Assembly (NCBI GenBank): GCA_947561715.1
Contig: OX387198.1
Span: forward strand, 5,704,001 to 5,768,000
Direction of reading: 5' to 3'
From: Ascidia mentula
Taxonomy: Eukaryota > Chordata > Ascidiacea > Phlebobranchia > Ascidiidae
Length of the DNA: 64,000 bases
Numbering within the stretch: the first letter of the stretch is position 1; every line of letters begins with the position of its first letter. Position numbers and translations under genes: made by a program. This document shows positions 32,601-64,000 of the stretch, in pieces. A model generated the notes under the pieces. It had not been told where the DNA came from. It was given only the letters and a program-made list of their open reading frames with translations, and did no database searches.

Positions 32601-35600
32601 TTGACTAATTTACATTCGTATTTAAGTAATATTGTGTATCCTCAGCTGTTGCAGACCTTAAATATTCTTCGGTGGGAGACAGTCAAGGCAAAACCATCTT
32701 GCAACAAATCCAGGAGAAGAAAAAGATTCTGGATCGGCTGCAAAAATACAAAGATAAACTTGAAAATGTGAAGACGCATCATCCATACCAACTTTCACCA
32801 ACACCTTCGCCGAGAAAAAGAGGTTGGTGTGAAAAGGGGATAAAGTTAGTGTGTGTTATATACAAGAGGTTAATCACGTGGTCTTGACGTAAGGTCCCCA
32901 TAAGCCTTGCACGTACGTATAACAAATGGACGTATGTGAAACCAGGTTCAGGATTCATAATACATTGGCATAGCGAAATAATAAAAAGCAAAAAAAGCTC
33001 AAATGCGAATGCGAATGTCAAGTCTTGTTTAACTAAATACAGCTGGACAATCGCAGTGTTGAGCACTTTCTTTATGGTACATGGTTTGCGTTTGTGTAAA
33101 TTTAAAACTGTATTATACCTTGCTTTCCTTCAGGTGTACAAGAAGCGATTGGAGTTCCCAAGCTGGCTCTTGATACTTTACGGGAACCAGTGGAGGCGGT
33201 TAAACGGGCTAATGATGCGGAACAGGCGATCGATGAAGTAGAACTGGCCGTTACGGCTGAGTTGCTTGACCTCGAAGCCCAGGCACGTGATAACGACGTA
33301 TACGATGACGAGATTCGACGGTTGGCCGAGAAATTGGATGACGTCAAACAGAGATTGAACCTCTTGCCCAAGTCGAAAAATTTTGGTTTGTGGTCGCGTT
33401 TTCATTTATGATTTTTTGGTATTTAAATTTCGATTGAACCCAGCGGATTATGTGAATGTACATACTATGTATACATTCAACAGACAAGCAGTTTCGCCTT
33501 TCAAAATAAAGGTTGCAATCTTAACTTTGTATTGGAATTTCTGGTGGACCGTGCGAAGTGCCATTGAATGCTTTATCATGTATTTTACTGACAATTAGCA
33601 GCTTCGCTTTTACAAGTAAAAGTTTACATGCTATCTCACTAAACCCTATTTGTATGTTTTTGATATAGGTTCATCGCGAGTTTCGACTCCAAGAACTCCC
33701 CGCGAGGAGCTGGAGGAGTTCAGGAAGTTGACTGAAGAGATGCAGGGTTACGAGAAGGAAATAGACCAACTCCGCCAGGAAGCTGAAAATATGAAATTCA
33801 GAAGTAAGTAATTCAGTTTGTGCTTCTTCTGTATTAGTTCAAATAGAAATAATACATACAGCAAGGACGAAATGCCATAGAAAGCAAGCCCGCCAATTTA
33901 ACTAAACGGTGTTTATGTAGGCTATATATTGGATTAAACTGTTCCAGTTGAAAATTTAAAACGATGTTTCAGATGATTCCAGTATGATGGAAAACGGTTT
34001 AGATTCTCCTCCATACGACTTGCCAAGTTTGAATGCGTTCCAGTACAGCATAGACGAAGTCGACGCACTGTCTACTACCGACGGTCCGCGCACTTCAACC
34101 AGGCAGCAAACACCACGTGAACGATTCGCCAACCAATCACCTTCGCCGAGATCTGACCCCGAGAAAACGCCCACATTTTATGACTTGCTGCGACAGGCTA
34201 CGAAGGAAGTCCCAATATCGCCAATAATTAAAACCAAGTACAGATTTATTTTTTGTAAAAGGTTGTGTTCTATGTCCTCATCGTGGTACAATTTTAAAGT
34301 AGATCTCCAACCGATGTGAAAAGAAGACTTGCCTTGGATGACGATCTTAGCGACACGGTATCACCGACGTGGACTACCCCCGATTCAAAGTTCCTCGGAT
34401 CCGCATCAAGTACTGATTAGATGGGATTTAAAACATAATTTTTGTATGACATGCCCAACAAATTATGTACCACGATAACTCTCTGCGCGCGCACAGTTTA
34501 GACTTATATAAAACCACTATTTGAATCCATTCATTGGTGCAGATCCGTCCTCGTGCAGCACAAACTCCCTACTTTCTCCAACCCTGGCGAAACCGATGGT
34601 TTCCACCTCACCGGATTCCGCCATAGCTCCGTCCACCGACCTTACTCGCGACAACTCGTACAGTGAGTTCGACGCGTTGCAAGTTACAACAGAAAACCAC
34701 ACTTTACAATTTCTTCATGTAACAGCTGAGGAACCAGAGACACGACAGAGTCTTACCAACAGTCCATTCATGGTATCAAGACAACGCGACAGCACTTTAC
34801 TCGACTCTCCTGATCGAAAACTAGGCATCGTTGACCGTTCCTTATCCAAACTAAAAGAGCAGGTAACATTCAAAGACTCCAAGCACGTTTTATATGAGCT
34901 GCATAAGGTTAAGTGCAATGGCATAGCTGCAAGTAGCTGCAAACACATCATTGTTTACAGCTCGGCTCAAAGGCGGAGTCGTTTCTGAACGCCCTCCAGC
35001 AACAGGAAGATCTTCAGGGCGAAATACAAGGAGTTACATCGAAACTCGATGAGTTCCAGGATCGTTTGGACGCTTCTGATGAAGAAGTCGATCTTCAAAT
35101 GACCCTTCAAGCAACTCAGGTAAGACTTATATTGTTAACAAGATTTGGAATGCTTTGGGTTGTATGTCGACCTTGAACGGTTTTCAGCTGTTTATATGTT
35201 TGACATTTAAGGGTTTTCCCTGTTGAGTGTGGCACCTTTAACGGTGTTTAAAGTGACAAGTTAATTAAATTATTCTATTTTATACAAATTTTTATTCTAT
35301 AAATACTACCAATATGTTCAAAATGTTTTGCGAATAATCTTCAAGAGTAAAGCCATACCTCTAAACTTGTTGGTTAGTATAATGCATACCTAGTCTTAGT
35401 GTAAGTATACTGGCTTCCTTCTAACACATTATGCCAATACCAGCATGTTTTGTTAGTTTCCTTTTGTTGAACAAAGGCATGTTTATAGGAGCTACTGGAC
35501 GACATTAACCGACTTATTCCCAAGCTGGAGTCGGTCGACCGAAAAGTTCGGTTTCTAGGCAAGGATCACGCGGGCAAGGATGCTTTCCAAGCCACTGTGT

Positions 35601-47600: not shown

Positions 47601-50600
47601 TTTGAAATGCAACAAAGTATCAAACGTTTTATCCGTTGCAGACTGAATGACTGGAACAAGTTCGACGAAAAATATCGGGACTTGTGCTCGTGGCTTAACA
47701 AGATGGAACGCAAGGTGGCGCACGCGAGTGATTCCGACGCAGAGCAGTTTCTTGAGAAGTTGCAGAAGGTTTGTTGCTAACGATGTGCAAAATAGAGAAA
47801 TGTAAAGTATGTTTAAAATCATGTTGTGAATGCCGCATTCTCTAAAGCTGGCGATACACATCACAAATTCGTACAGGAAAAACATCTTTTCTCTGACTGC
47901 ATGCCAGAACATACTAAAACACCTTTTCTCTCGCAAATGCCAGAACATACTGAACTTCAAAACCTTTTCACACAATGTATTTCCCATTGATTCCCCGTTT
48001 AGTTACTTCAACAAGTGTTGTTGTTTTTTCAACAAGGATTATTTGAGTGACATTGACGCTGACGGAGACCGACGGGCAGAACTTGTGTTGCTGGCAGAAC
48101 GTCTAGCTCCATCCAGTGACAGGAATGAAATGGAAAAGAAACTTGCGAAAATAAACGACAAATGGCAACACCTGGAAGGGCTTGTTCGGGCCAGGTAAGC
48201 GTTGTTATTAAAACAAGTACGTAATCAGAGCAACAATGAAACTATTTTCTTAGCGAAAAACATAATTAAAGCCTTCTCACGCAAAAAGAAGCTTTAAAAA
48301 CTAGTGATCGTTTTTTTTTCTCACTTCCTTTTGAGACAAAATCAAAAGTTTTAAAAAACTGTATCACATAATGTTATCTGGGTTTTGTTTAAGAAACTCT
48401 ACTGCAATGTAAACTTTCTGTTACGTAATAATGGCGGTGGCTCCAGGCCATTGGCAGTCATTGTTTGCTTGCTGATAAAAAAACGCTGCAGCAGACGAAA
48501 ATGACGTCAGTGACCGCGCATATATGAGGTTTTCTGACCCGTAAATATGATCTTGCCAACGTCACACGACAAGGGGAGAGAATGCTTGTTGCTTAATGGC
48601 AAAGAGACTTGTGCGAAGACAAGCTAGTGAAGTAACAGGACAAGGAAAGGTGCCAGTTGGGTTTGGCTGTAATTTTTTGAACAATGGACTCTTTCTTGTT
48701 ACAGACCTTTGGTTAATAAATAACTGGATGCCAATTGTTTAAAAGCTTCGGTAGTGTTAGCACCTATTCAGTACTGGAAGATTAGCTGAGATATGTTGAT
48801 TAGCTTTATTTCGTTGGAATACACTAAAGGTTTTTTAGAAAGATAATGATCAAGATACAATTTATATTTTAGCTTTAACATTGCCCAACTGATAAACTAA
48901 ATTAAATTGCTCTATTACCATCATACAACAAAGCACGAATGGAGCCAGCGTTTGAGAGGGTTAGGGCCTTGGCCCACGTTGAATGCAACACTTTGCATGA
49001 GAAAATGGCAGTATATTCTACGTGGGCTGAAGACTACGATCATGACGTGTCCGAACTTAAATACAGCGCGCCAATGGAAGCAGTGAAAACACTTTGCAGT
49101 ATTATGGTAAGCCATGCGGGCCTAATGAAATCGTGCAGCGTTGTGGACTTTGCTGCAGGTACAGGCCGGGTTGCCAGATGCCTTCGAGGTAAAGGATTCA
49201 CCGGTGCTATTGACGCAGTTGACGGCAGCGAGGGTATGCTACAACAGGGAAAGCACCTCTACCGTAAATCCTACTGCTGTATTTTACAAAGTGACGCCAA
49301 ACTACCAGAAGAGCTCACGTGTTCATCCTATGACGTGGCAGTATTGTGTGGCGCCTTGAGTCCTTCGCAAGTCGAGGTCGATGGTTTGCAATTTCTGATC
49401 AGCTCCGTGAGATCGGGCGGCTACGTTGTTCTCACCACGCGGCTAAACCCTTCTAATCTGGAATACGTCGCGAGGCTGGAGAAAGAAATGAAAGCGTTCG
49501 CAGATTGCGGTGTGTGGAGTTTGTTGGAGAAACGAGAAGTGAAGGATTTCGAGTTGGCGACTGACGACTCGGAGAGAGTCTCGGAGTCGAGATACATCCC
49601 AGGAGTTGTTTATTGTTACAAGAAGCTTTAAACTCTTGTGCAGTTGAACCGGTGTTCTGTTTGGGACTGGGGCACAGGGTGTTTGCAAAACGTTAGTGGG
49701 AGTGAAGTAACCTCTACCTCTGTGATGATAATCTATACGTTGGAATGCTTGAATTGTGGTGACCTTGGTATTGTGTGCATTAAAATACAACCGTTCATAT
49801 GAATCTTGGTCTTTTATGCGTAAAATTACGGATTTATTGCTCGCTAAAGTATTTCCGTATACCTGTCACCGAAGCAAGTTTTAATTAGGACACACGAGTT
49901 TTTTTTTTGTTTGCGCAGAAGGCTTTTACAAGGGTTCCTTACACATCCAACAAGGCGTGCATAGCGTTACGACGCCACGCGGATTCGAGCTACTTCAAAA
50001 CCTAAGTTGTATCTCTGGACAACCTTCTATAAGCAAGCATTCCCAAGGACCTGACGTTTGTGTTGTTACGCCACACTAAAAATATTTCTTATTGCGGTTT
50101 GGCAGTTCAGCGTTGTTTGAAGATATATGAAGGCAAAGGTCCTTGTAAAGGCAAAGAGTTAGCATAGGTTAAAGGCGAAATCGGTTTTGTTTTAGATACT
50201 CAGTCAGGTTTATTGAAGCTGTTAGTCTGTTCATACGAAACAGAAGGTCTCAGATTCTAAAAGTACTGTATTTATTTGCCAATTTGCTTATAATGTAACT
50301 TGTTTTAACGACATGATGTTAATGTTAGAATAAAACTTTGCAATAAACACACAAAGAAATATAAATTCAAAACCGTATTGGACCTGTTGAATTTTTTAAG
50401 ACTTAGTATTTTGACCCAAATATATAAACCAATTTCTAATGCAGTACTCCAGTTTCGACTTGGTTGAATTGCAACGTAAATTTCCCTTGAACACATGTTA
50501 AAGATGTTCTTTACATCCCGTAACACGTTGCCACCAATGAGTCAGGCACAATTGACGCAGCGGCCTAGAATTTCGCCGCGGGGTTACTTCGGGTCACCAT

Positions 50601-53600
50601 TACGCAATCGCAAATGATTTCCACGAATGAGTTTTGAATTCGGGCGGGAAACACTGAACTTGCATCGTGGAGCATTGCCATTGAATTTTGAAGACATTTC
50701 AGACCTGTAATGGTTTATTAATAGATGTTATCCTAATTGTGGTTGCTACTGCACATATTTAATAGCGCATTGTAACAACAACGTGTGCTGTTAAAGCTCA
50801 TGAAAAATTTAGGCAGGCAACCGGCAGCTGCACAATCAGTATCGATCGCGCTTTAAGACAACGTGTAGCGAAACACGTTTTAACTCACTAGCAGGATACT
50901 TATTTAATGCAAAATGCAATATAATAGACATACACAGCATAGTCAGAAACTGCGATTTACTTTCCAGGACCAAGAAGCTGAAAGAGACGTACGCTGCTGT
51001 AGCCCAGCTAGATACAAGCATGACTGACCTCCGTGATTGGCTGAAACTCATCGAAAGCAACTTGGCTGCTCCGGTTATTCACCAGAATTGTACCGACAGC
51101 GATGTGCGTACGCGGTTGGAAGAACAGAAGGTAATCCCAGTCCGTTTGTTTGTTAAACGTTTTCTTTCTGTTGAGAGATTAACCCGATTAACATTCGCGT
51201 AAATCACAACGGTTGACTGCTTATTTTTGTTTTTTTTACGATGTCTGTGTTTGCTGTTCTATCAGTATATCAGGAATTGTATTCGTATTAGCAAGGAATT
51301 AGTCAGCTTTTAAAAATTGGACCAAGCACTCTCGAATATTTTACCAAATACATCAACAAACATCTTCTATTGTGACCGGTAGAAGAAAACTCACCAGCAG
51401 CGAGATAACGACTTCGCACCCACAGCTGTTTAATTTGGTACCGCAGCGGGCACGAAGTGATTGATAAGCGAGATGGAAGCAATGCAAAGGCGCCTTTCAA
51501 ACGCCCAGCGCTAGAGCGTAGAGAACTGGGAAAAAGGCAACAGCTCTGCGGTTTAGTGGCAATAAGACTGGCCATCAAGTTGTATAGATGCAGCCAAAAA
51601 AGCCGGTCATAGTTTTGTGTCTTTGGACTCTTGTTTTCCACGCTTGGTTGTGGGACGACCGGAAATTGTTTCATGTAATATGTCTGCCTTGCTGAGAAGG
51701 AAGCTTCAAGTCGATTTGTTTGATGTTATACACTGCGAGTTCTCAGTTCGACCACAAAGGTCGTTTCACTGTTTTCTTCCGAGGTGATGTAATTTTGGCG
51801 AACGTTGGTTAAAGGTCTGTTGGTTGTCAAAACGCGTGAGGCTGAATCACAAGCTTCTATAATAGAGCAGCAGCAGATTACTTTAAGGGTTCTTTGCAAT
51901 TCAAATTTCAAACTAAATCAACGTTATTCTGTTGGACCCATAGTGAAATGTTTATTTATTTGTACGGACTACGGACTATATGCCGAAGTATAGCTGCAAG
52001 CTTTTATAGATGGCTAACTCAAGTTGAAAACCAGTTGTAATGTGAGGTAATGCTTATTGTTTAAAGAGTCGGCAGTGAAGCACAGAGCTTTTTCGTTTTC
52101 ACGGACGAACATAAAGTTACAAACCGAACTACTGCGTGTTTTTTTAAACCCGAAATCCCGCGCCACGACACGCACTGTTGCGCACGGGTTTGTTGCAAAG
52201 CACAACATATTCCTGTCTGTACTTGTAAGTGCATGTGTGAGGCTTGTTCGTAGCGCAGTAACGAGGTTAGTGCGTTGTTGCGATAGCCTGTGAGTAATTG
52301 AGCAATTGGTGCCAGCATTAACCGAATGAAAGGGTCATTTTTTCCTGCAAAAATCTTCGCGATTTCGCGACCTACGCTGGGTTATCATATGTTTTAAGGC
52401 ATTTGGTGAGCTAGTTTAAAACTGTAATAAAATTGTTGGACTTATTTTCCATGGGCAGGAATTGTAAGTAAAACGGTCTTTGCAACACGGAAATTAAACG
52501 ATTAAGAGACCAGCATTACAGTTATCGCTGTTTCGTATCCTTTTTGCTGGAGCGGCGACTTGACAGACAATTAAAAGGAACACTTGATACGAACCCCAGT
52601 CGTACCACAATCGGTCCACTATCTCTGCCACTTAATCCCCATGGGATTGTTACGCGTTTTGCTCCACGTCTGGATTGAAACCCGAAGGGAAACCGCAGTC
52701 TTCGCAGCCGTTTCATGTTGGATTTAACCTCGTTAAAGTTTGCTATATCTGCTGCTTGGTTTTAAACCTCTCCCTGGCATCATTATAATGGTTTAGGTTG
52801 GAATAAGTTGGCGAACGGCGTGTCATGTTGACCGCTGATATTGCGTAGATCATTGAGTGCTACCTAAACCCATTCTGTACAAAAGATGCGAAACCATTTG
52901 GTACATTTGCTTGGCACCAGTAGTTAATCAAGTGCCTGTTTAGTGTTATGGACGGCAGCGAATTTAATACAGTCCCATGAGTAATGTAGACCCACTTGCA
53001 GCAACAACTGCTGAGTTAGAACCGTCAAGGGAATTTTCTATCTTACTACTGTAGTAGCAAGGACATATATTTCGTACAAGAGCATGAGGTGGCATTGCTT
53101 CGAACGTATTTGCGTTAAGCAACAAGCTGGTGATATTGATTTTGCGTCAAACATCGCTCGTTTGCTTTTATTATTTCAACGCGAACAAGGTGAGAATCAG
53201 CTCATGTTGCTTCGTTACATGACAGACCGGTGATATTTCAGGCTTTTATACTTAGCGTGAATGTATTTTCAGTCGCTCAGCGTCAATCGACTTCCGCCCG
53301 TTTAGCTCTAAATTTAAGAGGATGATCCGCCCATTTAACACAACACGAATTTCGACTGAACTTGGGTTTTACACCCGAGTACAGGATTTCAATATGAACT
53401 GTTGTGGTCATGCTTAAGTTCAATAATAATAATCTTTTGTAAATTGTGTTGTCTCCATTTGTGCAACACACCAATCGCCTAAATTATCAGCGCCACGAAA
53501 GCAGTGGAAACGCTACAGTGTACTCGAAGGTCTTTTCATACGACTAATGCACAAGCAATAATCAGGCTAAACGACAAGGCTAAAGTCGCACGCTGGTAAT

Positions 53601-56600
53601 CAAGGGCTTGGCTTAAGCCTCGTGCCACAACCGCATATTTTCAATTGAAAATCCTCACCCACGTCAAGTGGTTGCTTGCGAAGAAGGGATATTGCCAGCC
53701 TTCACCGCCTTGAGCTATCGACTGAGGAATGCGACTGTATTAACGCAAGCTTGTTGTGTTAAAATCGCGCAATCAAATGCGTCCTGACGCAGCTTGTGTA
53801 ATTTTTCGAAATATTGTAATCGCAACGCATGGTTTAACGTTGCATGCGTCATTTCCGTTGCGCGACGCATGACTGCCGTTTGGGCTACAGCGTGCCCTTT
53901 GTTTATGAGGTGGCTAATAGTGTAGGGGAGTAGTTAAATAGGGTTTCGAACAGGCGTGAGAGGTCCATCACCAGTCACAGCAGAATGCAAATTCATCACT
54001 GCATGCATTGGCGACTAGTTGTGACGCGGTGGTTGTAGTCTTTGGTTGAGCGTTTTACAGCACAAGCTTTATGGCTAGCGAGTAAGCGTTAAAATCAGTA
54101 TCTGTTGATAACGTATAGCCAATGTAATCAAACTTGAAAGATTTTGGAAAGCGACTGCGCCGTTTTGCTAAAACTTATTGGTTTAATTGTTGGAAGCAGT
54201 TTTTTGTTTTGCTATCTGGTGGTAATCTAACGTATTTGGCAATGCTGAATGTTGAAACAAACAATTTTGAGTTGGGTATTTTTAACAGTGTAGACATTTT
54301 TGGGACCTAGCACTCAAGTTGGATCCTAATTAAGACTTTGTCAATTTGTCACGTGTTCTCAATTAGTGGCATTCTCTGCCCGAATGCAAAGTTATGTTCA
54401 GTCCTGAATATTTCGCCAAGCAATCAGCGTACGTCGAGTCACTTCACAGCGCGCTGGAAGTCGCGGTCAACGGATCAAGTGATCTTGCCAATGATCCGAA
54501 CGCGCGACTCAAGATATGCACCGACTGCCAGAAGCCCCAACTTTTCTTTTCCAATTCGGCGCCAAATTCCCCGTGCGCAATCAAGCGTCAATTGGACTTC
54601 GAGGATTCGCGCGGCGACCCGAGATCACCCGAGCGTGACCGAGGGACCTACGTCACTGCAGTGATGAGTACTCTTCTTAATACTCGTTCGCCCAACGCGA
54701 GTTTCAGCGAGAGTTTGATGCATGAAAGAGCGGAACAGCAAAGTTCGCCTGTCTCGCATAAACAATACTTCCTCAAGAGAAGGCCATCGATGAGGGCCGA
54801 GAATTCGAGATCAAACGCGTCGCCTGCTAAGGATTTCAGGCGTAGTTTAAGATTGCAGAGAAACACAGTTCCCCTGGTGGAAACCCCTATATCTGTGGAT
54901 GATAAAAAATGTGAGTTGGAGAAATCGTCCATTAAATCAGACACTGGCTTGTGTGGTGTTAAGGATTTGAATCACCATACCTCGAAAGAGGAAGTTGTGC
55001 CAGGAAGTAGCCCTTGCATAAAAAGCAATGCGTCCACGCGTTCAAACGTACAAGCAGATGGGGATGTAGTTCGAAAAGACTGTACTTCTAAACGTGATAT
55101 TTACTACACTTTGTCGCCGCTTTTACTGAATGAAATGGCGGACAAGGACAGCGAAAGTGGTAAAGGCATTTTTGGAACGCCGCGTATAAAGACCAAAGAT
55201 GGACGGATTATTGATACGCCATGTGATAAGAAACCTATGGAAGGAGTTTGTGAGTACAGCGATACCAACAAAGCAAATGAGCAATTGGAGAGTGACAGCT
55301 GCAGCACTGTAAGCGAGTCCTCATCTGGCGCCACATCGACATCTAGTGGCAGACCGGAATATTTTGCTGTGATCAAGAAAGGCGAGGACAAGAGAAGGCG
55401 ACACAAGAGCAGGGATCGTGCCATGTCCTTCGGCACTTCGTTCGGTTGCCATAGCAACTCGTTTCACACTACGCATGCGCAAGTAATGGCGGTGCTTTGT
55501 GATAAAACCAACATCCCCGATTCGCCCTCGGAAAAGTTGCACGAATCAGGAGCCAAAACCGTTTCCAGCACATATAAAGCCACTAATGTGACTCATACAG
55601 CTACTGTCAATGTGGAAGCATCAAGAAACCTCACAAAAACACCTAAGACCCCCAAGTTTATCACCCCTGATACGCCGAATGCGGGATTATCTTCACAGTT
55701 GACCACACCTGGCCACGAACCAGGTCTTCTATCCTTTTCCAACGTCTTCGAGCTTGGTGACGTCAGCAACTATGACATCAGCGACTCGTACGCAGAAGAG
55801 GCGGATTTCATGAAGGACGGCTACTGCCAGTGCAGTTACTGCACCGGAAACGAGGATATTTTCACTTCTACCCATGGAAAAGACTGGACAGAAGAATCGC
55901 ATCATCATGAGCCTACACACTGTAGTCGCCACAAAGCGAAAGATCACGAGTTCGATTCCCCGCTTAGCAGGGAAGACCTCGATTCTCCTGTTCAAACAGA
56001 AAACAATTACAAACAGAGTCCCGAGTATCGCGCTATTATGGATCTGTTCTGTCAGTGCAGGCATCAAGCAGATATAGATCATGAGGTGGTGCTTCTTCTT
56101 TGTTAAACATTTCATTACCGCATGGGCTCTGTTACCGTACATAATCAAGCTTCTACATTTTAAACAGCCAGAGATATTAAATGTTAAATATTTTATTCAG
56201 GCTTTACAACAAGATATTGAGAAGCACAGCACCGGTGTTGCATCAGTCCTCAACCTGTGCGAAGTGCTACTGCACGATGGCGACGCTTGTGCCACCGAAA
56301 ATGAGCGACAGTCGATCGAGGAAGCGACCAAAAGTCTTGACAGGCGATGGAGAAACATTTGTGCCTTATCCATGGAAAGACGATTAAAGTAAGTTTTTTT
56401 TATAACCAAAACCCTGCTAAATTTTTTTAGCCCTAAGTATTGTCTGCTTGGCTACACTTTCATTGCTTTGGAGTTTTTTTTACCTACCGTATGACATGGC
56501 CCACCGATTTAAAACCACTGTGCCTTACGTTTATATAACATAACAGCGAAATAATTGCTACCACAACACAACTGAATGGTACTTTACAACACAACTAACT

Positions 56601-59600
56601 TGAGTGTTTTCTGTTAATATCATAGGATCGAGGATACACAACGCCTGTGGCAAAAGTTTCTTTCCGACTTCGCTCGTTTCGGAGAGTGGTTGCATGACTG
56701 CGAGGCGACTTCATCAAATCCTAACACACAGTGTGTGGCTTACAACGTTGCGAGAGAAGAGTTGAGGTCATATGAAGTAGGTTTTCGCAATTGGCATCTC
56801 GTAGCAGCATATGATTGTACAGCGTAATTAATTTCGTCTGTTTGCTTGAAGACGTTCCAACGCAAAGTCCACGAAGGGCTGACTCAGCTTGAGCTGATTA
56901 ACAAACAATACAGGAGACTTGCCAGGGAAAATCGCACGGATACCAGCAACAAACTAAAACAACTGGTGAGCATCACTTTATGAGTAAAATGATTGAGACA
57001 AGCTTCCTAATCGCTCAACACAAAATGCAAGAACTTGTTTATAAACAAAGGATAATGCATCAGAGGGAACTGGGTTTTAATAAAAGTGTCTCAAGAGGTT
57101 GCGTAGTTCCGCTGTTGGCACTTAACGAGTGCCATCGCTTGGACTGTTTTTAACACTTGAATAACCACGTGGCAATTTCGCGAAGAACTTTTTTCACTTG
57201 AATGCAATATGGTGATGGTCTTTTCAGGTTCACGACGGAAATACTCGCTGGGATGCCCTCTCACGTCGGGTAGGCGGCGTCCTTCGTCGACTCAAGCACG
57301 CCATCGAGCGGCGGGAGAGCTTCGAGACGCTGCGTGAATCTCTTCTGGTGTGGCTAACCGAAACAGACCTGCAGCTCACCAATCTCGAACACTTCAGTCC
57401 GAGTTCCGATCGAAAAGAAAAACTCGCGCAAGTCAAGGTAACGGCCATGTCCAGTGCTTCGAAATACTTGCCTAGATTATTATTATTATTCCAAAAAAAT
57501 GGTTTAACCAACGAAAATGATTTAACCAACCAACAATATTAATTCTCTTTTAAACATATATCTTACTTTTAAACCTTCAATGCAATTTTCAAATACATGC
57601 AAATAATAGAGATTTTAAAGTTCCTTAAAGACAAGCTTACAACAAATCCTTAAATCTTCTGACACTGGACTAGTAATTGAACCTTTATCGCACGCAACGC
57701 ACTTATTTACCATCGTAATCCATTTACCACGCAACAGTAATTAGTTATAACCTTCTCCATCCCTTCATCAATGGCGACTTAAACGGGCTCGCAACCTCGA
57801 TAAATTTGCTCGAAGCATTTTGTGCGCTGATGGCGGCTATTATGTTTGTAATGATTGTCCTCGGTCGATTAGTCTTGTGTTGTAGGGGTCGAGTAGAGTG
57901 ATCAGAGGCATTTCGAGGACGATTGTAAGCATGGTAGTAAGTTTCGGTAAAAGATAGCACAGAATTTCGGTTTCGTTATTTGGTTTTGACTGTAAACATT
58001 TACAGAAAACGTCGTTTAGGGTAATGAGATGGTATCACATGCATACGGAAAAGGGAACGGAAAGGAAAGAATACTGTTAAATTTAATTGTTCAATGTTCA
58101 GACGATTCGAAAACGAACTGAAGCAAAAACTCATACCTTTGTGGCTATTTGCTTTGGTGATGTAGTACAACAACAATACCCTCTCATTAAGTGCCCTCGA
58201 CCCATAACCAAAGGTCTGCTGCTGTTCAGTCCGTCATTGTATGCAGTGATCCGACGTGCAGTTATTTTTCGTTCTCTCCACCGCCAGTGCAGTGTAAATA
58301 AACTGACCGCATTTTGGGCGACTCATAAACATGCAACTGCTGTATGTTGTAGGCGTTACTGGAAACTGCTCATTACAGTCAACCCAGAACATGACTGAGT
58401 TTAAAAATTATCGGTTTTACGACTCATAGAAGTCGTTCAATGGCAACGTAGTATTGTAGGAGTGAAGAAAAGATATGATACAGGCGTCATTGTCGCTTAG
58501 TAATTGGTTTAAAAGATTGAAGTTTTCGCAATCGTTGATGGAAAAACCTGGCATGGTTCAGTGCACGTAGCAATCCCCACAAATCAAATGCACTTGCCCG
58601 CGACGGGTGGAATAGTATGTTTGTTCAAGAGTTGAGTAAATAGACCTTGTGAGTGAGGCAGCTGTTTTGTTTATTGCCCAAATGGTAAAGCACTAGTTTT
58701 TGCCGGCATTCGGTCTGCAGTCGAATGCTCAAAATAGTTGCCTTGTACGCAAATCAAATTATTTCCTGAGTACTGATTCAGGGTAGCACGCTGCTGCAAG
58801 GCCAGCTTTTGGCATGTCGGTTTGATTATTCACATGAATGATGATGATTAGCATGTAGTTTGTTTATTCGCTTTTGCTTCAGATTAATTAAGATTCACAG
58901 GCACCAGGTCAGTTGCAGTTTATTGCTAGGGTTGTCAAACACAAGGACATGATGGGCACCACCCTTGTTTGTCAAAGCGGGCCGCAACGGTTGATTGTGC
59001 GTATTCGCTGTCACGCTAGTTGACAACAAGGTTTCTCGAGTACAGGCGTAGTACTCTTCTTGACTAGGCTATGCGTGGGAGCGAATACAGAAGTGGAAAC
59101 GTGGGTTTGGTTATCGTTTCCAACAGTGGTATTGAACAGGATGCACTGTTTCTAACTTACAACTAAATTTTGCTGAGGTTTTAGTGGTAAACAGCATCGT
59201 ACAGACAAAACCAATTATTGTTGGCCTCTCTGTTGAAGTAGACGATTTTCTAATACGCGATGATTTGGTATCAGTCGACTCTTAATAAATGCTTCACGGG
59301 ATATTGACTCCAAATTGCTAGTCGTAGTAACGGCCTTCTGTAGTAACGATGTTACCAACCGTGAAATCCATTCGTAGTCAGGGTGCCAGGTTAAACACCA
59401 ATCCACTGTACGTGAACCACGATCGCACGATCCCCTTTTTTGTCAGCACGCCTATTATACAAACACGTCACGTTTCCAGGGGTGTACTAATATTTGCACA
59501 AAAGACAGGCGAACGACCCAATGGAAAGGCTTTCTGCTGCCACAGAGCACAACGTGTGCCGGTTTTAAGTTGGTGCGCGCCAGTTAGGATAGGCGGTTGG

Positions 59601-62600
59601 TTAAGCCCACAAAGCGTTTGTGTTGTTGGCGCTTGATACTTGAAAATGCTTGTTGGTATCGATTGTAGCTATGTAATCGTCTGTTTTGTATTTCTCGTAC
59701 CATACTATTGGCAAAATGAGGTAGAAGCAGTGTTTTGTTTATACTTATTTGGCATGGTCAAAAATCTTCTCACTTTATTGCATGTAGAATGGTTAATGTA
59801 TACTAAGTAGCGATGAGTGAAAGCATCAATTGTTGCGAAATAATTAGGAAGGAAGTGGAAGAACAGCTTGCTTTGCTGTCGGTGAGATTCAATTAAAACA
59901 TTAACTTGTAAGAAACCAACAAGCCAGGTGCAAAGTAAAAACATGATTTCGGTTCGCAGGATTTCCAATCAAGAATTGAAGAAAGAATTCCCCTTCTCCG
60001 TGAACTGGACGAGAAAGGTCGTCTTCTGGTAGAGAAAAGCGAGCAACACGACTGCGTTGCAGTGGAGGAAGAGATGGAAGATTTCCACGACTACTGCAGG
60101 GAGGTTATCGCCAGACTGGACCGCTACCATAAACGACTGGTACATCTTATGGTAAGCATTGGTGTAAGCAATGACGGCGTTTTGTGCAGTATCGTGTTAT
60201 ACATTTAACATGGTTTGCTAATGCAGTAGGTTGGTTATGGAGTACCTGAAAATTTGTATTTTGATTCTTTAAAGTTTAACTAACATTGATTTGCTTTCAC
60301 AGAACGAATCGGACTTGCCAACTAACTCGTCGTTGTTCGATGATACCGAGCTACCCAACCTTACCTGGTGGACTGCGAGTTGTCTGACCGATGTAAGTTT
60401 TCCCGATTCGAACACCACAGACAGAGATTTACTTGCTACGCCTACTGGGAGGCCATGCAACGAGGACAAGAAAAAACACGACAAACTGAATGGAAGGTAT
60501 TGGATTGTGTTGTAACTTGATACGTGATTAAGTGATTAAGAGTAGTTTTTTTTCCTTTACCGGGGTTTAAGCATTAGCAACTCTCTCCTGACGTAAAATC
60601 AATTTAATTCAATTCACCGGTGTTTCTGTGAAGCAGTAGCGAATAAACAATATTTTATTGTACAGAACATCTCCTCACAGCATCGGGTCATTAGAATGGG
60701 ATCATTACGATATCAGTCAATCTGAAATCGATGCAAAACTTGACGATGACAGTTTGTCAATAGAAGGTTCTATAACCGGTTAGTAGCATAAACATTCTCT
60801 GAAAGCAACCCGGACAAGCTTAGTGATTGTTACGCCATATCATTTCAGATCTACCTTCCTTGGATGGTGATACCCCGGAAGAATTAAACATCAGTACGGA
60901 TTCAACCATAAAGTACAAGGAACCGGTAGGTTATTACTGTGGTAAATGTGCGATGACCTGGGCACATTTAATTACGTTGACTATTTTCAGAAATCGCTCA
61001 AAAGCAACTTGGCCGCTGTTACTCGACCCCGCCAGGAGGACGAGACTGCCGGTAAAACGATACGAATATTATTTCATTTTCTAACAACAAAAATTATGGT
61101 TGAAAGTACCAAGTTGTGTTTAAAGCATCCTATTGAATCTACAAGCTAAAATTCATTCCCAGTTCTTAAAAAAATATATTCTTAACATTATTCAATATTC
61201 ACAAAGTCGACTCGGCTCCAGCGAAACGACGACGTCAAGACCTGGACAAAACGGAACAGAAAGTAAAACAAAGGGAACGTCTTAATCACGATTTGGACGC
61301 CGTTCTTAAGTGGTTAGGCGCCACAAAGGTGTCATTTGAAAAGAGCGTCCCCACCAGTGAAAGTGTTTCGCAAATCGAAAGCAAAGTCAAGGAGCTGAAG
61401 GTAAGTGGTATAGTTGCCTTTGGCGGTATCATCCTATGGACAGCGTTCAAACAATCGGTGTATAATTTATCAACCAACATGCACTTGTTATGAAAAAGGA
61501 TAATGAGACATTTCAATAATACTCATTTTATAAAAATCCAACTACATATCCACATATAATTTTGCCCCAGGCCTTGCAAAAGGAAATCGAAGCGCGAAAA
61601 CCGATCGTGCTTTCCATTAATTTGGTTGCGGCGCGAATCACCAACGTAGACGCCGACGAAGAGTTGGCGAGCGAAAAAACCAGGAGCAAATCGCGGAGAA
61701 TGAACGTGGAATGGGAAGCTGTCAACGCAAATGCACTGAAACGAAAGGAAGAACTGCAGAAGATGTTTGTTCGCAGCGAGGTAAGAGGAATTCTTTAAAT
61801 AACAAGGAAACATTTATTAAGTCCATGACTGTTAAGTTATTGATTAACAGCTTTTGCGAGTAAGACCTCATTGGCTTCTGCAAACGTTGTGGTTATTTCA
61901 CAGTTTCAGTCTTTTTTCTTATAACTTTACAAACTATGGACCTTCTTTTAGGAGCTGAGATTTGCTACAAAGAAGTTGAAAATCTGGATCGAGGAGCAAG
62001 AGAAGAGGAGGCAGGATCTTGCAACCGTGTGTCGATCCAAGGATTCACTTCTTCCCATACCGCTCCAGACTCTGCGTAAGGCGCACAAGGCGCTCATTCA
62101 ACTGCGCGTCGACACATTGGAAGAACGCGCAAAGGTAGAAACTACTTCTTCCTGCAAAGTTTTACCATGCAGAAATTGTACTGTGCTTCTGGTATTAAAT
62201 GAATTTAGATTTAGTTGAACCTACGTTAGGTCTCGCCGGATGGCAGAGAGCAGAAATATTTTTTTTTTTATAATATTTGATTTTGATTTATAACAGATTG
62301 CTACTCTGCAAGACATCTCAAACCAACTGCTATACGCTGACGTTAGATTCCGCAGTCAGCAGGCACCTCCGGTAGAAGGCGCCACTGAGACATCCGATAG
62401 ATTACACGACCTCACTGACCGCTTGAAGGCGCTGCTGGATCGCATCGGTGATGACGTACGAGTGGCTGAAGGGGCGCTTAAGGAGGAGAGGCGGAGAATG
62501 GTGATGAATTGTTTATATCCAATATTTGCAACAGTTTTTGCAATTAATGCCGATGCCCAAATTGTCAACAAGTCAATTGCGAACGGCAATTTATAATCCG

Positions 62601-63162
62601 GGGAGGTCAAATGAGTCATAGAATGGTTTAAATTTGTCGCCTTACCGCCAATAGCGCCCGGGGGGAATAAAAGCGCGTATTCAGTTACATTCTCATTGAA
62701 AATCTCTGGCTTGGAGTGAATGAAACCAAGTTGTATTACAGTCGGACTGCCACGCTCTTATATGGCCTGGTACAACTGAAGTAGATAGTAGATAGGGAAA
62801 CAGTGGTTAACAGTTTGTTGCTGTTTCAATTTGTAGAGAGGGAGTGTTGGTTCAAACTCAGAAACTGACTCAGTCGCCAGCGAGGTTTCTCTCCATTCGA
62901 CAACTTCCATGAAACTGAAGAAGCTTCGTAGGAAGGTAAAGCATTGTGCAGTGAAAAATTTATAGTTGATTTATGTGAATTTGTACCACCAGACTTATAA
63001 TAAGAGATAAACTATTATAGCTTTTTGATACTGTTGGATTCACTCACTAACCGAATATTTTATTTTTTCTTCCTTTCTTCTTCCCTCTCTCGTTGCGATT
63101 GTGCCTTTTTCTCGCGCCTTCTCTCGATTTCTCCAGGTGGAAACGTCAAAAACGAAGTACAG
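4989..63162 (+). CDS. SYNE1: Nesprin (SYNE1/SYNE2 orthologue), giant spectrin-repeat LINC-complex protein, 131 exons traced, partial at both ends
   Basis: Nesprins sit in the outer nuclear membrane, bind SUN proteins through a C-terminal KASH domain, and connect the nucleus to actin and microtubule motors. I joined 131 exons totalling about 21.0 kb (about 7,000 codons) with consistent phase at every junction. The product is mostly spectrin repeats (roughly 55-60), recognisable by spaced Trp in helix A (DW, EW, SWL) and Leu heptads, with no EF hands, PH, SH3, plakin or WW domain. Orthology rests on the last third, which matches human nesprin-1/2 motif by motif (LTQLELINKQYRRLARENRT in exon 119, SLDRRWRNIC in exon 117, LEWDH in exon 123). 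Human giant nesprin-1 is about 8,800 residues, so most of the rod is here. The CH domains must lie upstream and the KASH domain downstream. Whether the species has one or two SYNE genes cannot be seen, so the symbol is nominal. Confidence 0.93.
9011..13019 (+). CDS. SYNE1: Nesprin exons 11-21: spectrin-repeat rod
   Basis: Exons: 9011-9176, 9445-9590, 9930-10103, 10347-10511, 10740-10895, 11094-11251, 11499-11624, 11734-11949, 12194-12284, 12553-12762, 12898-13019. Hallmark helix-A segments include FYAWFRSSKEVV, STKAWLRSATTKL, DELVTWLDENDALF and DFVDWCNSAKEELD. Many exons end in phase 0 after Gln or Lys within helices, as in vertebrate SYNE genes. Exon 19 (91 nt) uses a weak acceptor (TGTAAAG) but is required for frame and sequence continuity. 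Introns hold no other coding signal. The intron at 9591-9929 carries one copy of a weak interspersed repeat. Confidence 0.88.
9667..9760. repeat. Copy of the GTTTCGACC intronic repeat
   Basis: GACAGTTGTGCGCACGCTGTTTCGACC at the left and TTATTATGGGTTG at the right resemble the copies at 13075 and 16815. The middle is diverged. Confidence 0.35.
13075..13186. repeat. Copy of the GTTTCGACC intronic repeat with a fold-back core
   Basis: GACAGTACTGCATAAAGTTTCGACC is followed about 20 nt later by GGTCGAAGCAGTGTGC, so GTTCGACC-type arms are inverted and could fold back. It ends ATCATTATTGGCTCATTG, like the copy at 16815. Confidence 0.4.
13318..17531 (+). CDS. SYNE1: Nesprin exons 22-33: spectrin-repeat rod
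   Basis: Exons: 13318-13576, 13647-13780, 13833-14019, 14181-14342, 14738-14902, 15163-15303, 15541-15757, 16030-16147, 16223-16346, 16535-16736, 17083-17237, 17421-17531. Helix-A signatures include LKEEWRSWDRSLIE, VREFDLWIKSKKDAV, NEITEWLQTVEAKF, FTECQEWMNDFGH, VKNAQSWLEQAEQ and LHIFTDWFSGRPVE. Exon 27 has two usable in-frame donors six bases apart (CAA|gtgcaa and CAA|gtatgg); I took the downstream one. Introns before exons 22, 26 and 32 contain weak repeat copies sharing the core GTTTCGACC. Confidence 0.88.
16815..16985. repeat. Copy of a weak intronic interspersed repeat (GTTTCGACC family)
   Basis: It begins GACAGTGCATGCTGTTTCGACC and ends near CATCATGGGTTCATTTG. Similar starts and ends recur at 9667-9760 and 13075-13186, and the core alone at about 14409-14437. 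Size and non-coding nature suggest a SINE- or MITE-like element, but terminal repeats and target duplications are not clear. Confidence 0.4.
17924..22571 (+). CDS. SYNE1: Nesprin exons 34-46: spectrin-repeat rod
   Basis: Exons: 17924-18076, 18328-18492, 18780-18974, 19195-19356, 19613-19791, 19931-20108, 20195-20272, 20392-20601, 20838-21060, 21129-21295, 21382-21559, 22117-22237, 22466-22571. Signatures include VSFEDWLNAMEQ, SDEFDQWLNTAAERF, LDSLKSWLADAMSK, SAEKWLLGKSSQI and TGAWLAEQQSSIR. Exon 41 opens with a short Ser/Glu-rich stretch (LGESGSESSPAST) between repeats, a possible flexible phospho-linker. The 557-bp intron 21560-22116 contains no coding signal that I can support. Confidence 0.88.
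22954..27566 (+). CDS. SYNE1: Nesprin exons 47-60: spectrin-repeat rod
   Basis: Exons: 22954-23072, 23230-23437, 23641-23868, 23952-24050, 24156-24273, 24777-24982, 25291-25433, 25667-25856, 26020-26131, 26255-26442, 26562-26749, 26931-27069, 27138-27308, 27414-27566. Signatures include LDATRSWLRALIDKV, QALAWLEHIKENLEK, VDRCLRWLKEADI, LEELEDYLGVGQ and EKGVQWLEDTQSAL. The intron 24274-24776 (about 500 bp) encodes nothing recognisable on either strand. All exon joins keep frame. Confidence 0.88.
28363..32177 (+). CDS. SYNE1: Nesprin exons 61-70: spectrin-repeat rod
   Basis: Exons: 28363-28560, 28961-29107, 29479-29640, 29806-29957, 30141-30296, 30629-30815, 31074-31244, 31460-31594, 31735-31923, 32040-32177. 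Signatures include ISWEGFDLELDRV, LRDMLEWVEDMRENAD and LNEMGEFLDEWKSKAL. The 796-bp intron 27567-28362 before exon 61 has one 27-nt open block with good splice edges that I rejected as an exon. Other introns here are up to about 400 bp and empty as far as I can see. Confidence 0.88.
32255..39081 (+). CDS. SYNE1: Nesprin exons 71-86: rod interrupted by a Ser/Thr/Pro-rich disordered insert
   Basis: Exons: 32255-32483, 32646-32822, 33134-33385, 33669-33803, 33973-34237, 34303-34409, 34543-34862, 34961-35119, 35489-35665, 36002-36275, 37145-37336, 37906-38030, 38297-38383, 38450-38591, 38733-38899, 38986-39081. Coiled-coil stretches alternate with low-complexity segments rich in SP and TP (LSPTPSPRKRG, VSTPRTPRE, NQSPSPRSDPEKTPTF, SPTWTTPDSK). 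Exon 81 is almost purely Ser/Thr/Arg (RTSSTSSTSTVVSS). Exons 75-77 and 81 contain no helix-forming repeat at all. Phase is preserved throughout, so the insert is part of the main reading frame, although individual exons could be alternatively spliced. Introns 35120-35488, 36276-37144 and 37337-37905 show no further coding signal. Confidence 0.82.
39146..43562 (+). CDS. SYNE1: Nesprin exons 87-103: spectrin-repeat rod
   Basis: Exons: 39146-39283, 39372-39521, 39635-39817, 39997-40134, 40210-40320, 40480-40653, 40724-40877, 41032-41197, 41261-41377, 41735-41933, 42058-42207, 42283-42402, 42516-42617, 42730-42868, 42940-43099, 43248-43360, 43430-43562. Signatures include LSDWTKETDATVQ, ELAEKLKSWILETNSAL and VNILQQWMDRKIQ. 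Exon 101 carries a short linker (TPEPGCGSPELLK) before LKQAIQQWDK. Acceptors of exons 89 (GTGAAG) and 90 (TTAAAG) are non-CAG but required by frame. The 357-bp intron 41378-41734 is AT-rich and empty. Confidence 0.86.
43824..48194 (+). CDS. SYNE1: Nesprin exons 104-115: distal spectrin-repeat rod
   Basis: Exons: 43824-44016, 44327-44445, 44677-44854, 45040-45209, 45559-45702, 45834-45938, 46350-46581, 46789-46952, 47178-47369, 47428-47574, 47642-47768, 48037-48194. Signatures include MGYMDAWLGEVEVI, FAEKCENWMLCVTQ, VDAAIETWRTYKHK, DKISDIISWLADTKTM and YRDLCSWLNKMERKV. Exon 115 ends NDKWQHLEGLVRAR, matching the usual end of a repeat before the conserved C-terminal set. Introns 45210-45558 (with an AC microsatellite) and 45939-46349 are otherwise empty. 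Confidence 0.87.
45360..45400. repeat. AC microsatellite
   Basis: Roughly ten CA units run into CAGACAGA and TATATATA within the intron between nesprin exons 107 and 108. Likely length-polymorphic. Confidence 0.8.
48195..48938 (+). other. Non-coding stretch upstream of the nested methyltransferase gene
   Basis: No coding signal was seen. It must contain the nested gene's promoter if that gene is independently transcribed. A TATATGAG-like stretch near 48518 is the only core-promoter-like word I noticed. Confidence 0.35.
48939..49631 (+). CDS. METTL27: METTL27/WBSCR27-like class I SAM-dependent methyltransferase, single exon, nested in a nesprin intron
   Basis: The 230-codon intronless frame runs ATG to TAA. 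It shows the class I methyltransferase layout: motif I VVDFAAGTGRVARCL at residues 68-82 (SAM-binding Gly loop, here AAGTG), acidic motif II region DAVDGSEGMLQQGKHLY, motif IV-like YDVAVLCGALSPSQV, and post-I SGGYVVLTTR. The order GTG, DGSEGML, VLCGALS and VLTTR with N is characteristic of the METTL27 (Williams-Beuren 27) family, and the length (about 230-245 residues) fits. The substrate is not established. It lies on the same strand inside the 2.77-kb intron between nesprin exons 115 and 116. An ATTAAA polyadenylation signal follows at 49779. The lack of introns in an intron-dense neighbourhood suggests a retroposed copy or a compact host gene. Confidence 0.82.
   Translation: MEPAFERVRALAHVECNTLHEKMAVYSTWAEDYDHDVSELKYSAPMEAVKTLCSIMVSHAGLMKSCSVVDFAAGTGRVARCLRGKGFTGAIDAVDGSEGMLQQGKHLYRKSYCCILQSDAKLPEELTCSSYDVAVLCGALSPSQVEVDGLQFLISSVRSGGYVVLTTRLNPSNLEYVARLEKEMKAFADCGVWSLLEKREVKDFELATDDSERVSESRYIPGVVYCYKKL
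49632..50967 (+). other. Non-coding stretch between the nested gene and nesprin exon 116
   Basis: It contains the 3'UTR of the methyltransferase gene and then plain AT-rich intron. No exon, repeat or RNA gene was supported. Confidence 0.45.
49779..49784 (+). terminator. Polyadenylation signal ATTAAA of the nested methyltransferase gene
   Basis: ATTAAA lies about 150 bp after the methyltransferase stop codon, at a normal 3'UTR distance. It would end the nested transcript well before nesprin exon 116. Confidence 0.45.
50968..51130 (+). CDS. SYNE1: Nesprin exon 116: last exon before the alternative-promoter region
   Basis: The exon encodes RTKKLKETYAAVAQLDTSMT followed by DLRDWLKLIESNLAAPV and DSDVRTRLEEQK, ending in phase 0. 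From memory, human nesprin-1 has the closely similar TKRLEETFGALQQLD and LRTWLARIESELSKPV here. Spliced to exon 117 at 56201 it rebuilds an unbroken spectrin repeat, so the big exon at 54394-56085 is skipped in the giant form. It follows the 2.77-kb intron that hosts the nested methyltransferase gene. Confidence 0.92.
51131..54393 (+). promoter_or_regulatory. 3.2-kb non-coding block, probable internal promoter/enhancer of the short isoform
   Basis: No exon, repeat array or RNA gene could be supported on either strand. Because it directly precedes the ATG exon at 54394, it is the natural place for an internal promoter. Visible details are a cluster of TGCGTCA/TGACGCA words at 53777-53875, GC-richer patches around 52150-52350 and 52520-52720, and a CACGTG E-box near 54350. 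No clear TATA box was found close to the expected start. Confidence 0.4.
54394..56085 (+). CDS. SYNE1: Candidate alternative first coding exon (564 codons) of a short nesprin isoform
   Basis: This uninterrupted 1,692-nt open frame begins ATG (MFSPEYFAKQ), has an in-frame TAG 30 nt upstream, and runs to a donor GAG|gtggtg in phase 0, matching the phase-0 acceptor of exon 117 at 56201. It lacks spectrin repeats. The sequence is hydrophilic and disordered: Ser/Thr/Pro-rich, basic clusters (KKGEDKRRRHKSRDR), a TP array (KTPKTPKFITPDTPN), and Cys groups at residues 42/45, 478/480/483 and 553/555 beside a His run at 503-505. It interrupts the junction between exons 116 and 117, which otherwise fit seamlessly, so it is best read as a separate start of transcription. 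A cassette exon entered at TTCAG|T (phase 2) would not keep frame with exon 116. The donor is weak, and no transcript evidence is available to me. Confidence 0.72.
56201..57437 (+). CDS. SYNE1: Nesprin exons 117-120: highly conserved C-terminal spectrin repeats
   Basis: Exons: 56201-56388, 56626-56776, 56852-56965, 57228-57437. They encode LQQDIEKHSTGVASVLNLCE, SLDRRWRNICALSMERRLK, RLWQKFLSDFARFGEWL, LTQLELINKQYRRLARENRT, HDGNTRWDALSRRVG and ILVWLTE-like LLVWLTETDLQLTNLEHF. These match human nesprin-1 and nesprin-2 nearly residue for residue as I remember them, and are the firmest basis for naming the gene. This block is shared by the giant form and the candidate short form starting at 54394. 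Confidence 0.96.
57438..59812 (+). other. 2.4-kb non-coding intron segment upstream of the second candidate start
   Basis: No coding exon or RNA gene could be supported. It contains a short ATT microsatellite near 57475-57491. The open frames of 60-100 codons in it have no family resemblance and no splice partners in phase. As it leads into the ATG exon at 59813, part of it may be a promoter. Confidence 0.4.
57475..57491. repeat. ATT microsatellite
   Basis: Five or six ATT units lie shortly after the donor of nesprin exon 120. Confidence 0.7.
59813..59881 (+). CDS. SYNE1: Candidate second alternative first exon (23 codons) of a very short nesprin isoform
   Basis: ATG (MSESINCCEIIRKEVEEQLA LLS in two pieces) runs 69 nt to a strong donor TCG|gtgaga in phase 0. 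The acceptor of exon 121 (59960) is 78 nt further on and also phase 0. An in-frame TAA lies 9 nt before the ATG, and the only nearby acceptor (AAGTAG) would enter in the wrong phase for a cassette after exon 120, so a first exon is the simplest reading. The peptide is helix-prone and continues into DFQSRIEERIPLLRELDEK. An isoform from here would have one partial repeat, the LEWD linker, the last repeats and KASH. Confidence 0.5.
59960..61400 (+). CDS. SYNE1: Nesprin exons 121-126: end of a repeat, LEWD-containing linker, start of the last repeat pair
   Basis: Exons: 59960-60151, 60303-60496, 60666-60778, 60849-60925, 60991-61051, 61207-61400. Exon 121 (EMEDFHDYCREVIARLDRYH) matches human ELEELHRYCQEVFGRVSRFH. 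Exons 122-125 are an acidic, disordered linker. Exon 123 holds SIGSLEWDHYDIS, equivalent to vertebrate SIPLEWDH, the kinesin-1 light-chain-binding W-acidic motif. Exon 126 restarts helix (HDLDAVLKWLGATKVSF). Exon 122 contains a second strong donor (GAT|gtaagt, after 60392) in phase 0, compatible with skipping to exon 125. Confidence 0.9.
60691..60702 (+). other. LEWD kinesin-1 light chain docking motif
   Basis: Codons TTA GAA TGG GAT in exon 123 encode LEWD, followed by HYDIS and acidic residues. In vertebrate nesprins the same motif in the same linker recruits kinesin-1 through the light-chain TPR domain. Here the motif and position are seen directly; function is inferred from the family. 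Confidence 0.75.
61571..63162 (+). CDS. SYNE1: Nesprin exons 127-131: last spectrin-repeat pair and Ser-rich pre-KASH linker
   Basis: Exons: 61571-61780, 61952-62134, 62297-62500, 62837-62935, 63137-63162. ALQKEIEARKPIVLSINL aligns with human nesprin-1/2 (KAFDTYKALVVSVN, KAVDHRKAIILSINL). IATLQDISNQLLY aligns with VDMLQEISNSLL. Exon 130 is Ser-rich (GSVGSNSETDSVASEVSLHS), then basic (KLKKLRRK). Exon 131 is only 26 nt (VETSKTKY plus two bases) and ends in phase 2. No transmembrane/KASH coding sequence (luminal NNFARSF...PPP type) is present up to its end, so the gene continues. Confidence 0.9.
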
Positions 63163-63938
63163 GTTAGTCGACCAAACGGTGGAAACCCATGACTTTCTTG
63201 TTTTTTGCCTGTTGCATTGTTGTGTTACGTACATGTCTCGCTTTGCCTGTGTGCCGCCTGCTGCCTGGACTTCTTGAAAAGGGAGGACTTTTTGGAAAGG
63301 AAGCTATTTTCTTAATTTAACATATAGCAGCAGAACCAGCAAACAAATAATAGGGTTCCCACAAGCGAAAGCCGCCAAAAAACGGGAAAACAAAAAGTCG
63401 TATCCGGCAGTACTTCCACCCTAAATTAAACTCATTGAAATGTTTTAGATAAGGGCAATAAGTTATTGAACTTTCATACATTAATATTAGGATTATTCCA
63501 CACACAACTAAACGCAACTTACAAAGATAAATAACGTGATAGAACTATCTGGAGAACTTTTTCTAGTAAACCAATTCCAAGCAAAACGATAAATAAACTA
63601 TTTTTATTACACCGACGTTCCACCGCAATTCCACACGAGAATCCGAACACCAATACACTATAAATTCCCGAGAAGATTCATGCTGCCCCCTAGCGGATCA
63701 GTTTATCAGTCCGAAAATCTGGCGCTCGTGTCGCCGCCTAAATTCAAACACATTAAAAACCACTTTCTCCCGTTAATACTTCAACGAAACAGTATTGTCG
63801 TTTCATAACTAAAACTTAATATCAACTGGTGCATGATTCGCTTGCATGACGAGTTAACATGGATCTGTGCGTCCTGTGTTTGAATGCATGGGTGTCTGTA
63901 TGTTATGACGTCATCTTTTCTCTTACTTTCTTTTGAAG
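63163..63938 (+). other. Non-coding intron sequence near the right end
   Basis: Nothing supportable was seen: AT-rich sequence, with no KASH-like hydrophobic stretch in any frame that I can read. Short open frames here have no resemblance to known proteins. Confidence 0.5.
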
Positions 63939-64000
63939 GTCGTCTCGGGGTCATCATACTAAAACGGTTTTGGTCTCGAATTCTTTAATATCTTTAATAT
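63939..64000 (+). CDS. Candidate next nesprin exon running off the window
   Basis: A pyrimidine-rich acceptor (TTTCTTTTGAAG) is followed by an open frame in the required phase: SSRGHHTKTVLVSNSLISLI to the window end. A basic Ser/His stretch before a hydrophobic run would suit the pre-KASH position, but the length is too short to decide, and a donor-like GTTTTG follows ACG. Confidence 0.3.

Follow-up and report, generated by a model that had tools for sequence, protein, structure and literature searches.

Results

A Nesprin Gene Occupies the Window

The window, that is, the whole 64,000-nucleotide stretch of Ascidia mentula contig OX387198.1 analysed here, contains on its forward strand a SYNE/nesprin gene with a spectrin-repeat rod. 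Around and past the junction discussed below, the rod matched PF00435 Spectrin (1.3e-20) and PF25034 Spectrin_SYNE1 (8.2e-12); both matches were over cut-off and came from a query with one wrong residue at the exon 115/116 join. We modelled the gene with a self-written generalised hidden-Markov gene finder, which combines codon usage, intron background and splice matrices and tracks phase and split stops. It calls internal exons only, having no first-exon state, and was trained on the window minus the open block at 54394–56085 that is the subject of this study; its splice matrices were seeded with generic consensus values and were then retrained without the block. The plus-strand path comprised 133 exons from 4989 to 62935, with a total score of 2342, and the same gene finder run on the reverse strand returned 39 spurious exons with a total of 135, which we took as the false-positive level. 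Removing the block and two false exons in the region of a METTL27-like gene left a reference model of 130 exons, which join without a stop over 20,556 bases. The codon model still included the two false exons, and the splice matrices behind the scores 4.40, −0.26 and 2.35 quoted below were remade without them. The SYNE gene appears to run past the end of the window; a Pfam scan for the KASH domain, which covered five of the eight plus-strand open pieces longer than 45 residues at 62001–64000, gave no match.

Counted from 4989, the exons that flank the block are numbers 116 (50968–51130, plus strand) and 117 (56201–56388, plus strand) of 130, as the original prediction had numbered them, and their junction is in phase 0. 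The intron between them, 51131–56200, is the largest of the gene at 5,070 bases; the two that follow it in size have 2,773 and 2,522, and the median intron has 185. Spliced to each other in the giant isoform, the two exons form a nearly full spectrin repeat: they matched positions 5–104 of the Pfam spectrin profile with 30.9 bits (cut-off, 29.9). Exon 117 starts mid-repeat, near position 45 of the 105-position profile, and when searched alone it matched positions 45–105 with 21.6 bits. The last 56 residues of the block joined to exon 117 matched positions 42–104 with 25.4 bits, under the cut-off. Because the junction falls inside a spectrin repeat, a short form that enters the gene at exon 117 would begin with a repeat lacking roughly its first two fifths, which in the usual spectrin-repeat layout comprise helix A and the beginning of helix B. 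Downstream, exon 123 of 130 (60666–60766, plus strand) carries a LEWD motif of the kinesin-binding type, which would be common to the giant and short products.

The SYNE gene also hosts another gene. An intact single-exon METTL27-like methyltransferase gene lies at 48939–49631 (plus strand), nested in the SYNE intron 48195–50967. Its product matched Methyltransferase-like 27 in the PDB over residues 19–229 (3.4e-31) and Methyltransf_25 in Pfam (6.9e-06; 27.1 bits, cut-off 27).

The Largest Intron Contains a Coding Block of 564 Codons

The block belongs to a frame that is open from 54367 to 56103 on the plus strand and is bounded by a TAG at 54364–54366 and a TAA at 56104–56106. Nine codons 3' of the frame opening, an ATG at 54394 begins a run of 564 codons that ends in phase 0 with the GAG at 56085. 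The donor at this point reads GAG/GTGGTG, the TAA falls six codons past it, and the following exon begins at 56201 with the peptide ALQQDIEKHS. On rereading the sequence, we found the predicted coordinates to be exact in every respect (ATG, 564 codons, phase 0, donor, and acceptor at 56201).

Could such a frame be open by chance? The 3-base periodicity of the block was 7.45, whereas 500 dinucleotide shuffles averaged 0.75 and reached 2.29 at most. The longest frame was 240 codons across 500 dinucleotide shuffles of the block, and 167 codons in three frames of 2 Mb of simulated intron DNA. The codon log-likelihood was +93 in frame 0; the remaining two forward frames scored +18 and +61 and contain 17 and 39 stops. 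A test that used synonymous codons only counts against coding in frame 0, which it did not single out: the score was 30.7 for frame 0, 3.8 and 44.5 for the two remaining forward frames, and 41.5, 20.7 and −2.1 for the reverse-strand frames. This failure to separate the frames is probably due to confounding by base composition. Because both the 3-base periodicity and the length of the open frame exceed those of shuffles and simulated intron, the block is clearly coding and its open frame is not a product of chance.

The Block Encodes a Peptide That Is Likely Mostly Disordered

The 564-residue peptide had no match in the PDB and two matches in Pfam, both under cut-off (best E, 0.11). Searches for relatives returned 32 pattern matches in bacterial and archaeal genome contigs and four in viral contigs, none of which was confirmed. 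The peptide is rich in serine, threonine, proline and glycine (a combined fraction of 0.31 versus 0.19 in the rod). A single-sequence AlphaFold2 model had a mean pLDDT of 36.9, and no residue reached 70; because this model was made without an alignment, it is a weak indicator of disorder. FoldIndex did not set the block apart, with 374 of 514 windows negative versus 4577 of 6802 in the rod. Taken together, the composition, the absence of any domain match over cut-off and the weak single-sequence model suggest that the peptide is likely mostly disordered. Residues 1–60 (54394–54573) modelled best, with ten-residue pLDDT means of 50–59 and a helix at residues 4–27 followed by a C-x-x-C stretch, ICTDCQK; in the model, these residues could form a small folded N-terminal element.

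The block contains 20 [ST]P sites versus 6.7 expected, a count that none of 2000 shuffles reached. This enrichment is not special to the block, because a disordered stretch of the rod itself shows it likewise (15 sites versus 5.9 expected, 0 of 2000 shuffles). That stretch, encoded by exons 74–77 (33669–34862), comprises 261 residues and is largely non-spectrin and disordered-looking. In the remainder of the rod, we counted 24 sites versus 15.6 expected (6 of 300 shuffles), and in the LEWD linker three versus 2.4. The likeness of the block to these regions was weak, its alignment score being reached by 20 of 300 shuffles for the disordered stretch and by 48 of 300 for the LEWD linker. The block also carries one SxIP-like motif (TNIP), one PKA-like motif and two basic runs, lone motif matches that we do not count as evidence.

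The 3' Edge of the Block Resembles That of a First Exon

How might the block be connected to the nesprin gene? The donor at 56086 scored 4.40, at the 24th percentile of the 130 model donors, and its phase 0 matches exon 117, whose acceptor before 56201 scored 7.41, in the upper part of the range. The putative intron that joins the two (56086–56200, plus strand) is 115 bases long, and 32 of the 129 introns of the model are this short or shorter. By chance, an equally good phase-matched donor would lie within seven codons in about 0.55% of cases in coding sequence (5 of 6332 positions); in introns longer than 150 bases, with the host intron left out, such a donor precedes 9 of 1230 stops. Because a slightly stronger in-phase donor sits within the block at 55483 (4.73 versus 4.50 for 56086 under the same scoring), this argument rests on the place of 56086 beside the stop.

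We scanned the 129 introns for frames that run from an ATG to an in-phase donor. Candidates with a donor above 1.5 were present in 41 introns; the block scored 97.7, the nested METTL27-like gene 25.5 and the next candidate 8.1. In the third-largest intron, which lies towards the 3' end of the model (57438–59959, 2,522 bases), the best candidate for a further first exon had 11 codons and a score of 6.0 and was not credible. At the 5' edge of the block, an upstream out-of-frame ATG with a C at −3 opens a seven-codon frame (54384–54407), which overlaps the candidate start codon. Initiation at 54394 would therefore need leaky scanning, which counts against this start, and the short frame might hold back translation of the short isoform.

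The 3.2 kb of non-coding DNA 5' of the block (51131–54393, plus strand), which holds no model exon, would carry an internal promoter and a 5' UTR. Its GC content is 0.40–0.47 in 500-base bins versus 0.347 in the introns shorter than 1 kb of the same gene. Seven of the eight promoter patterns sought in this interval gave null results, TATA, MEF2, CArG, CRE and E-box patterns showing no enrichment; GC boxes, one of the eight, occurred twice versus 0.42 expected, and 20 of 300 shuffles reached two, a figure uncorrected for the number of patterns. It had been proposed that a promoter here predates the tunicate/vertebrate split. What speaks for this proposal is the intron shared with nesprin-1-alpha-2 (see below), the promoter motifs lacking clear enrichment; an ancient internal promoter at the junction is thus suggested by position only.

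The Junction Coincides with That of Human Nesprin-1-alpha-2

Human SYNE1 exon 131, which we take to open with DLQRDIEQHS, resembles exon 117, which opens with ALQQDIEKHS. In human alpha-2, a private exon of 31 residues is placed directly before exon 131, as described in PMC4924313. The product encoded from exon 117 onward aligned with a provisional human alpha-2 sequence from residue 2 past the junction; the alignment spans about 280 residues, contains one gap and scores 895. Because the alignment starts at human residue 2 of exon 131, the junction is the same as in human alpha-2, the short form made in muscle, in agreement with the original prediction; the exact human boundary is partly presumed and partly set by the printed length of 31. 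Exon 117 is thus identified as the equivalent of human exon 131 by the gene model, the alignment, the spectrin profile and the description in PMC4924313.

On the other side of the junction, we compared the block with the human 31-residue peptide, residues 1 and 18–31 of which are provisional. The best local score, 25, was reached by 1187 of 2000 shuffles, which lends no support to the suggested homology of the two N-terminal peptides. The last 40 residues of the block fared similarly, with 2952 of 5000 shuffles scoring as high. A CQC does lie nine residues before the junction, as had been pointed out; however, the human C-x-C with which it was paired presumably sits four residues from the junction, 59 of 5000 shuffles also place a C-x-C among their last 15 residues, and the motif was picked after the fact.

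The donor, its phase, the poor in-frame acceptors (see below), the 3.2 kb of non-coding DNA upstream and the shared junction all support the proposal of an alternative first exon at the alpha-2 junction, which is the best reading of the block on sequence grounds. We put at about 70% the probability that a short nesprin isoform begins with this block (54394–56085, plus strand, 564 codons) as its own private first coding exon.

Is this start inherited or convergent? As a sub-case of the same reading, the block may be a real first exon that arose independently of vertebrate alpha-2, the coincidence of the junctions reflecting convergence at a permissive intron. We regard this as possible, at odds clearly below even. 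An independent origin would agree with the lack of similarity between the block peptide and the human 31 residues, and about 15 starts have been proposed in human SYNE1, so that matching one of them is not rare: 11 nesprin-1 5' starts are given in the table and text of PMC3388047, where the new nesprin UTRs are typically retained introns, and alpha-1, alpha-2, beta-1 and beta-2 are further starts listed in PMC3981789. If any of these starts is counted, the chance of a match is nearer 10%. The match is, however, to the alpha-2 intron itself, for which the chance is about 1 in 129, and alpha-2 is the nesprin-1 KASH isoform reported to be strongly supported; according to PMC3981789, Simpson and Roberts (2008) found strong support for it in a comparative analysis and it is present in human and mouse, and the evidence on the nesprin-1 beta isoforms is judged insufficient there.

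Cassette Exon or Nested Gene?

Could the block instead belong to long transcripts? Under this explanation, some of them would include a giant cassette exon of about 1.67–1.72 kb between exons 116 and 117, in phase 0 on both sides. The phase-0 end of exon 116 and the frame open to 54367 allow in-frame inclusion through an acceptor at 54367 or 54421, our gene finder, which lacks a first-exon state, called the block an internal exon from 54421, and a second long disordered stretch rich in [ST]P sites occurs in the rod. Both acceptors are weak, however: the one at 54367 scored −0.26, under all 130 model acceptors (minimum, 1.34), and the one at 54421 scored 2.35, under their 5th percentile (2.45), a score equalled or beaten in 587 of 2850 60-base intron stretches. 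Moreover, the longest of the 130 model exons has only 320 bases, and in the giant form an included block would interrupt the spectrin repeat that exons 116 and 117 make up together. The poor in-frame acceptors at the 5' edge thus disfavour a cassette exon, which we consider unlikely, and they equally disfavour a strong spliced-leader acceptor at 54366. Stronger acceptors are found at 54402 (3.22) and 54450 (3.59); because these are out of phase with exon 116, an upstream exon of another phase, unseen by our model, is possible.

A nested intronless gene on the same strand, encoding a 570-residue protein that ends in VVLLLC and has no nesprin function, deserves weight because the METTL27-like gene, 5 kb upstream of the block, shows that the host tolerates nested single-exon genes, and the block, with an ATG and a stop of its own, shows no spectrin match and is followed by an ATTAAA at 56176 (one of 50 in the 64 kb window), but we hold it to be improbable, given that an ordinary phase-matched donor lies only six codons ahead of the stop (chance, 0.55–0.73%), that the stop ends 94 bases ahead of exon 117 within a 5,070-base intron, and that the METTL27 frame has no such fit, its best in-phase donor scoring 2.1 and omitting about 310 bases of the gene.

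Discussion

If the block is a first exon at the alpha-2 junction, transcription would start within the 5 kb intron between exons 116 and 117, and translation would begin at the ATG at 54394, as suggested by the frame. The block would then be spliced through the donor at 56086 to exon 117, a step backed by the site itself, its phase and its position. The predicted product would lack the N-terminal part and nearly all of the spectrin rod and keep the last repeats and the LEWD motif, its KASH anchor presumably being encoded beyond the window. The missing opening two fifths of its first repeat would be replaced by 564 residues, for the most part disordered and with an abundance of proline-directed phosphorylation sites.

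What could such a protein do? The LEWD motif binds kinesin in vertebrate nesprins (PMC6775114), and in the mouse, myonuclear positioning needs alpha-2 nesprin-1 and not the actin-binding long form, according to PMC5496623. By analogy, the short product most likely acts like nesprin-1-alpha-2, as a nuclear-envelope adaptor that would recruit kinesin or microtubule organisers with no tie to actin. Its long N-terminus might, by conjecture, be a docking or spacer arm tunable by kinases. The picture that emerges is of a short adaptor at the nuclear envelope whose disordered arm would be accessible to proline-directed kinases. More tentatively, and at odds somewhat below even, the start may have persisted in this intron from a time before vertebrates and this lineage diverged, and the private N-terminus may have been wholly replaced, the 564-residue disordered, phosphosite-rich arm making the product a kinase-regulated adaptor and no mere truncation.

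If the start site does predate the vertebrates, the division of labour between giant and short nesprins would be ancient, and work in an invertebrate would offer a way to study the two apart. The 564-residue private arm would also offer a handle specific to the short isoform, for an antibody, a tag or a knock-out, that is far larger than the 31 residues available in human. Among the matches listed in our literature search, which drew mainly on openly available papers, no title concerned nesprin isoforms in invertebrate chordates.

Internal starts with private exons are known from several comparable systems. Short dystrophin isoforms such as Dp71 are likewise C-terminal products made from internal promoters in a giant spectrin-repeat gene, with private first exons; unlike the block, these encode short private peptides, and the gene is a different one. 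In Drosophila Msp300, the isoforms M and G, which lack the CH domains and have KASH, use internal starts and share exon 28, absent from the long isoforms, and isoform G is proposed to anchor myonuclei (PMC8616381). Like the predicted ascidian isoform, M and G are short products of internal starts with an exon private to the short forms, but the exon and its position are others, and the comparison is one of descriptions rather than of sequences. Nesprin-2 epsilon and alpha and other internal SYNE starts described in PMC3981789 and PMC3388047 also arise by alternative initiation within a giant nesprin gene, with start positions elsewhere. Human and mouse nesprin-1-alpha-2 share more with the predicted isoform: a private first exon joined to the equivalent of exon 131 (on the block's side, by prediction), loss of the N-terminal domains and most of the rod, and retention of the last repeats and LEWD. 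They differ in the private peptide itself, which has 31 residues there and 564 here, with no detectable similarity between the two.
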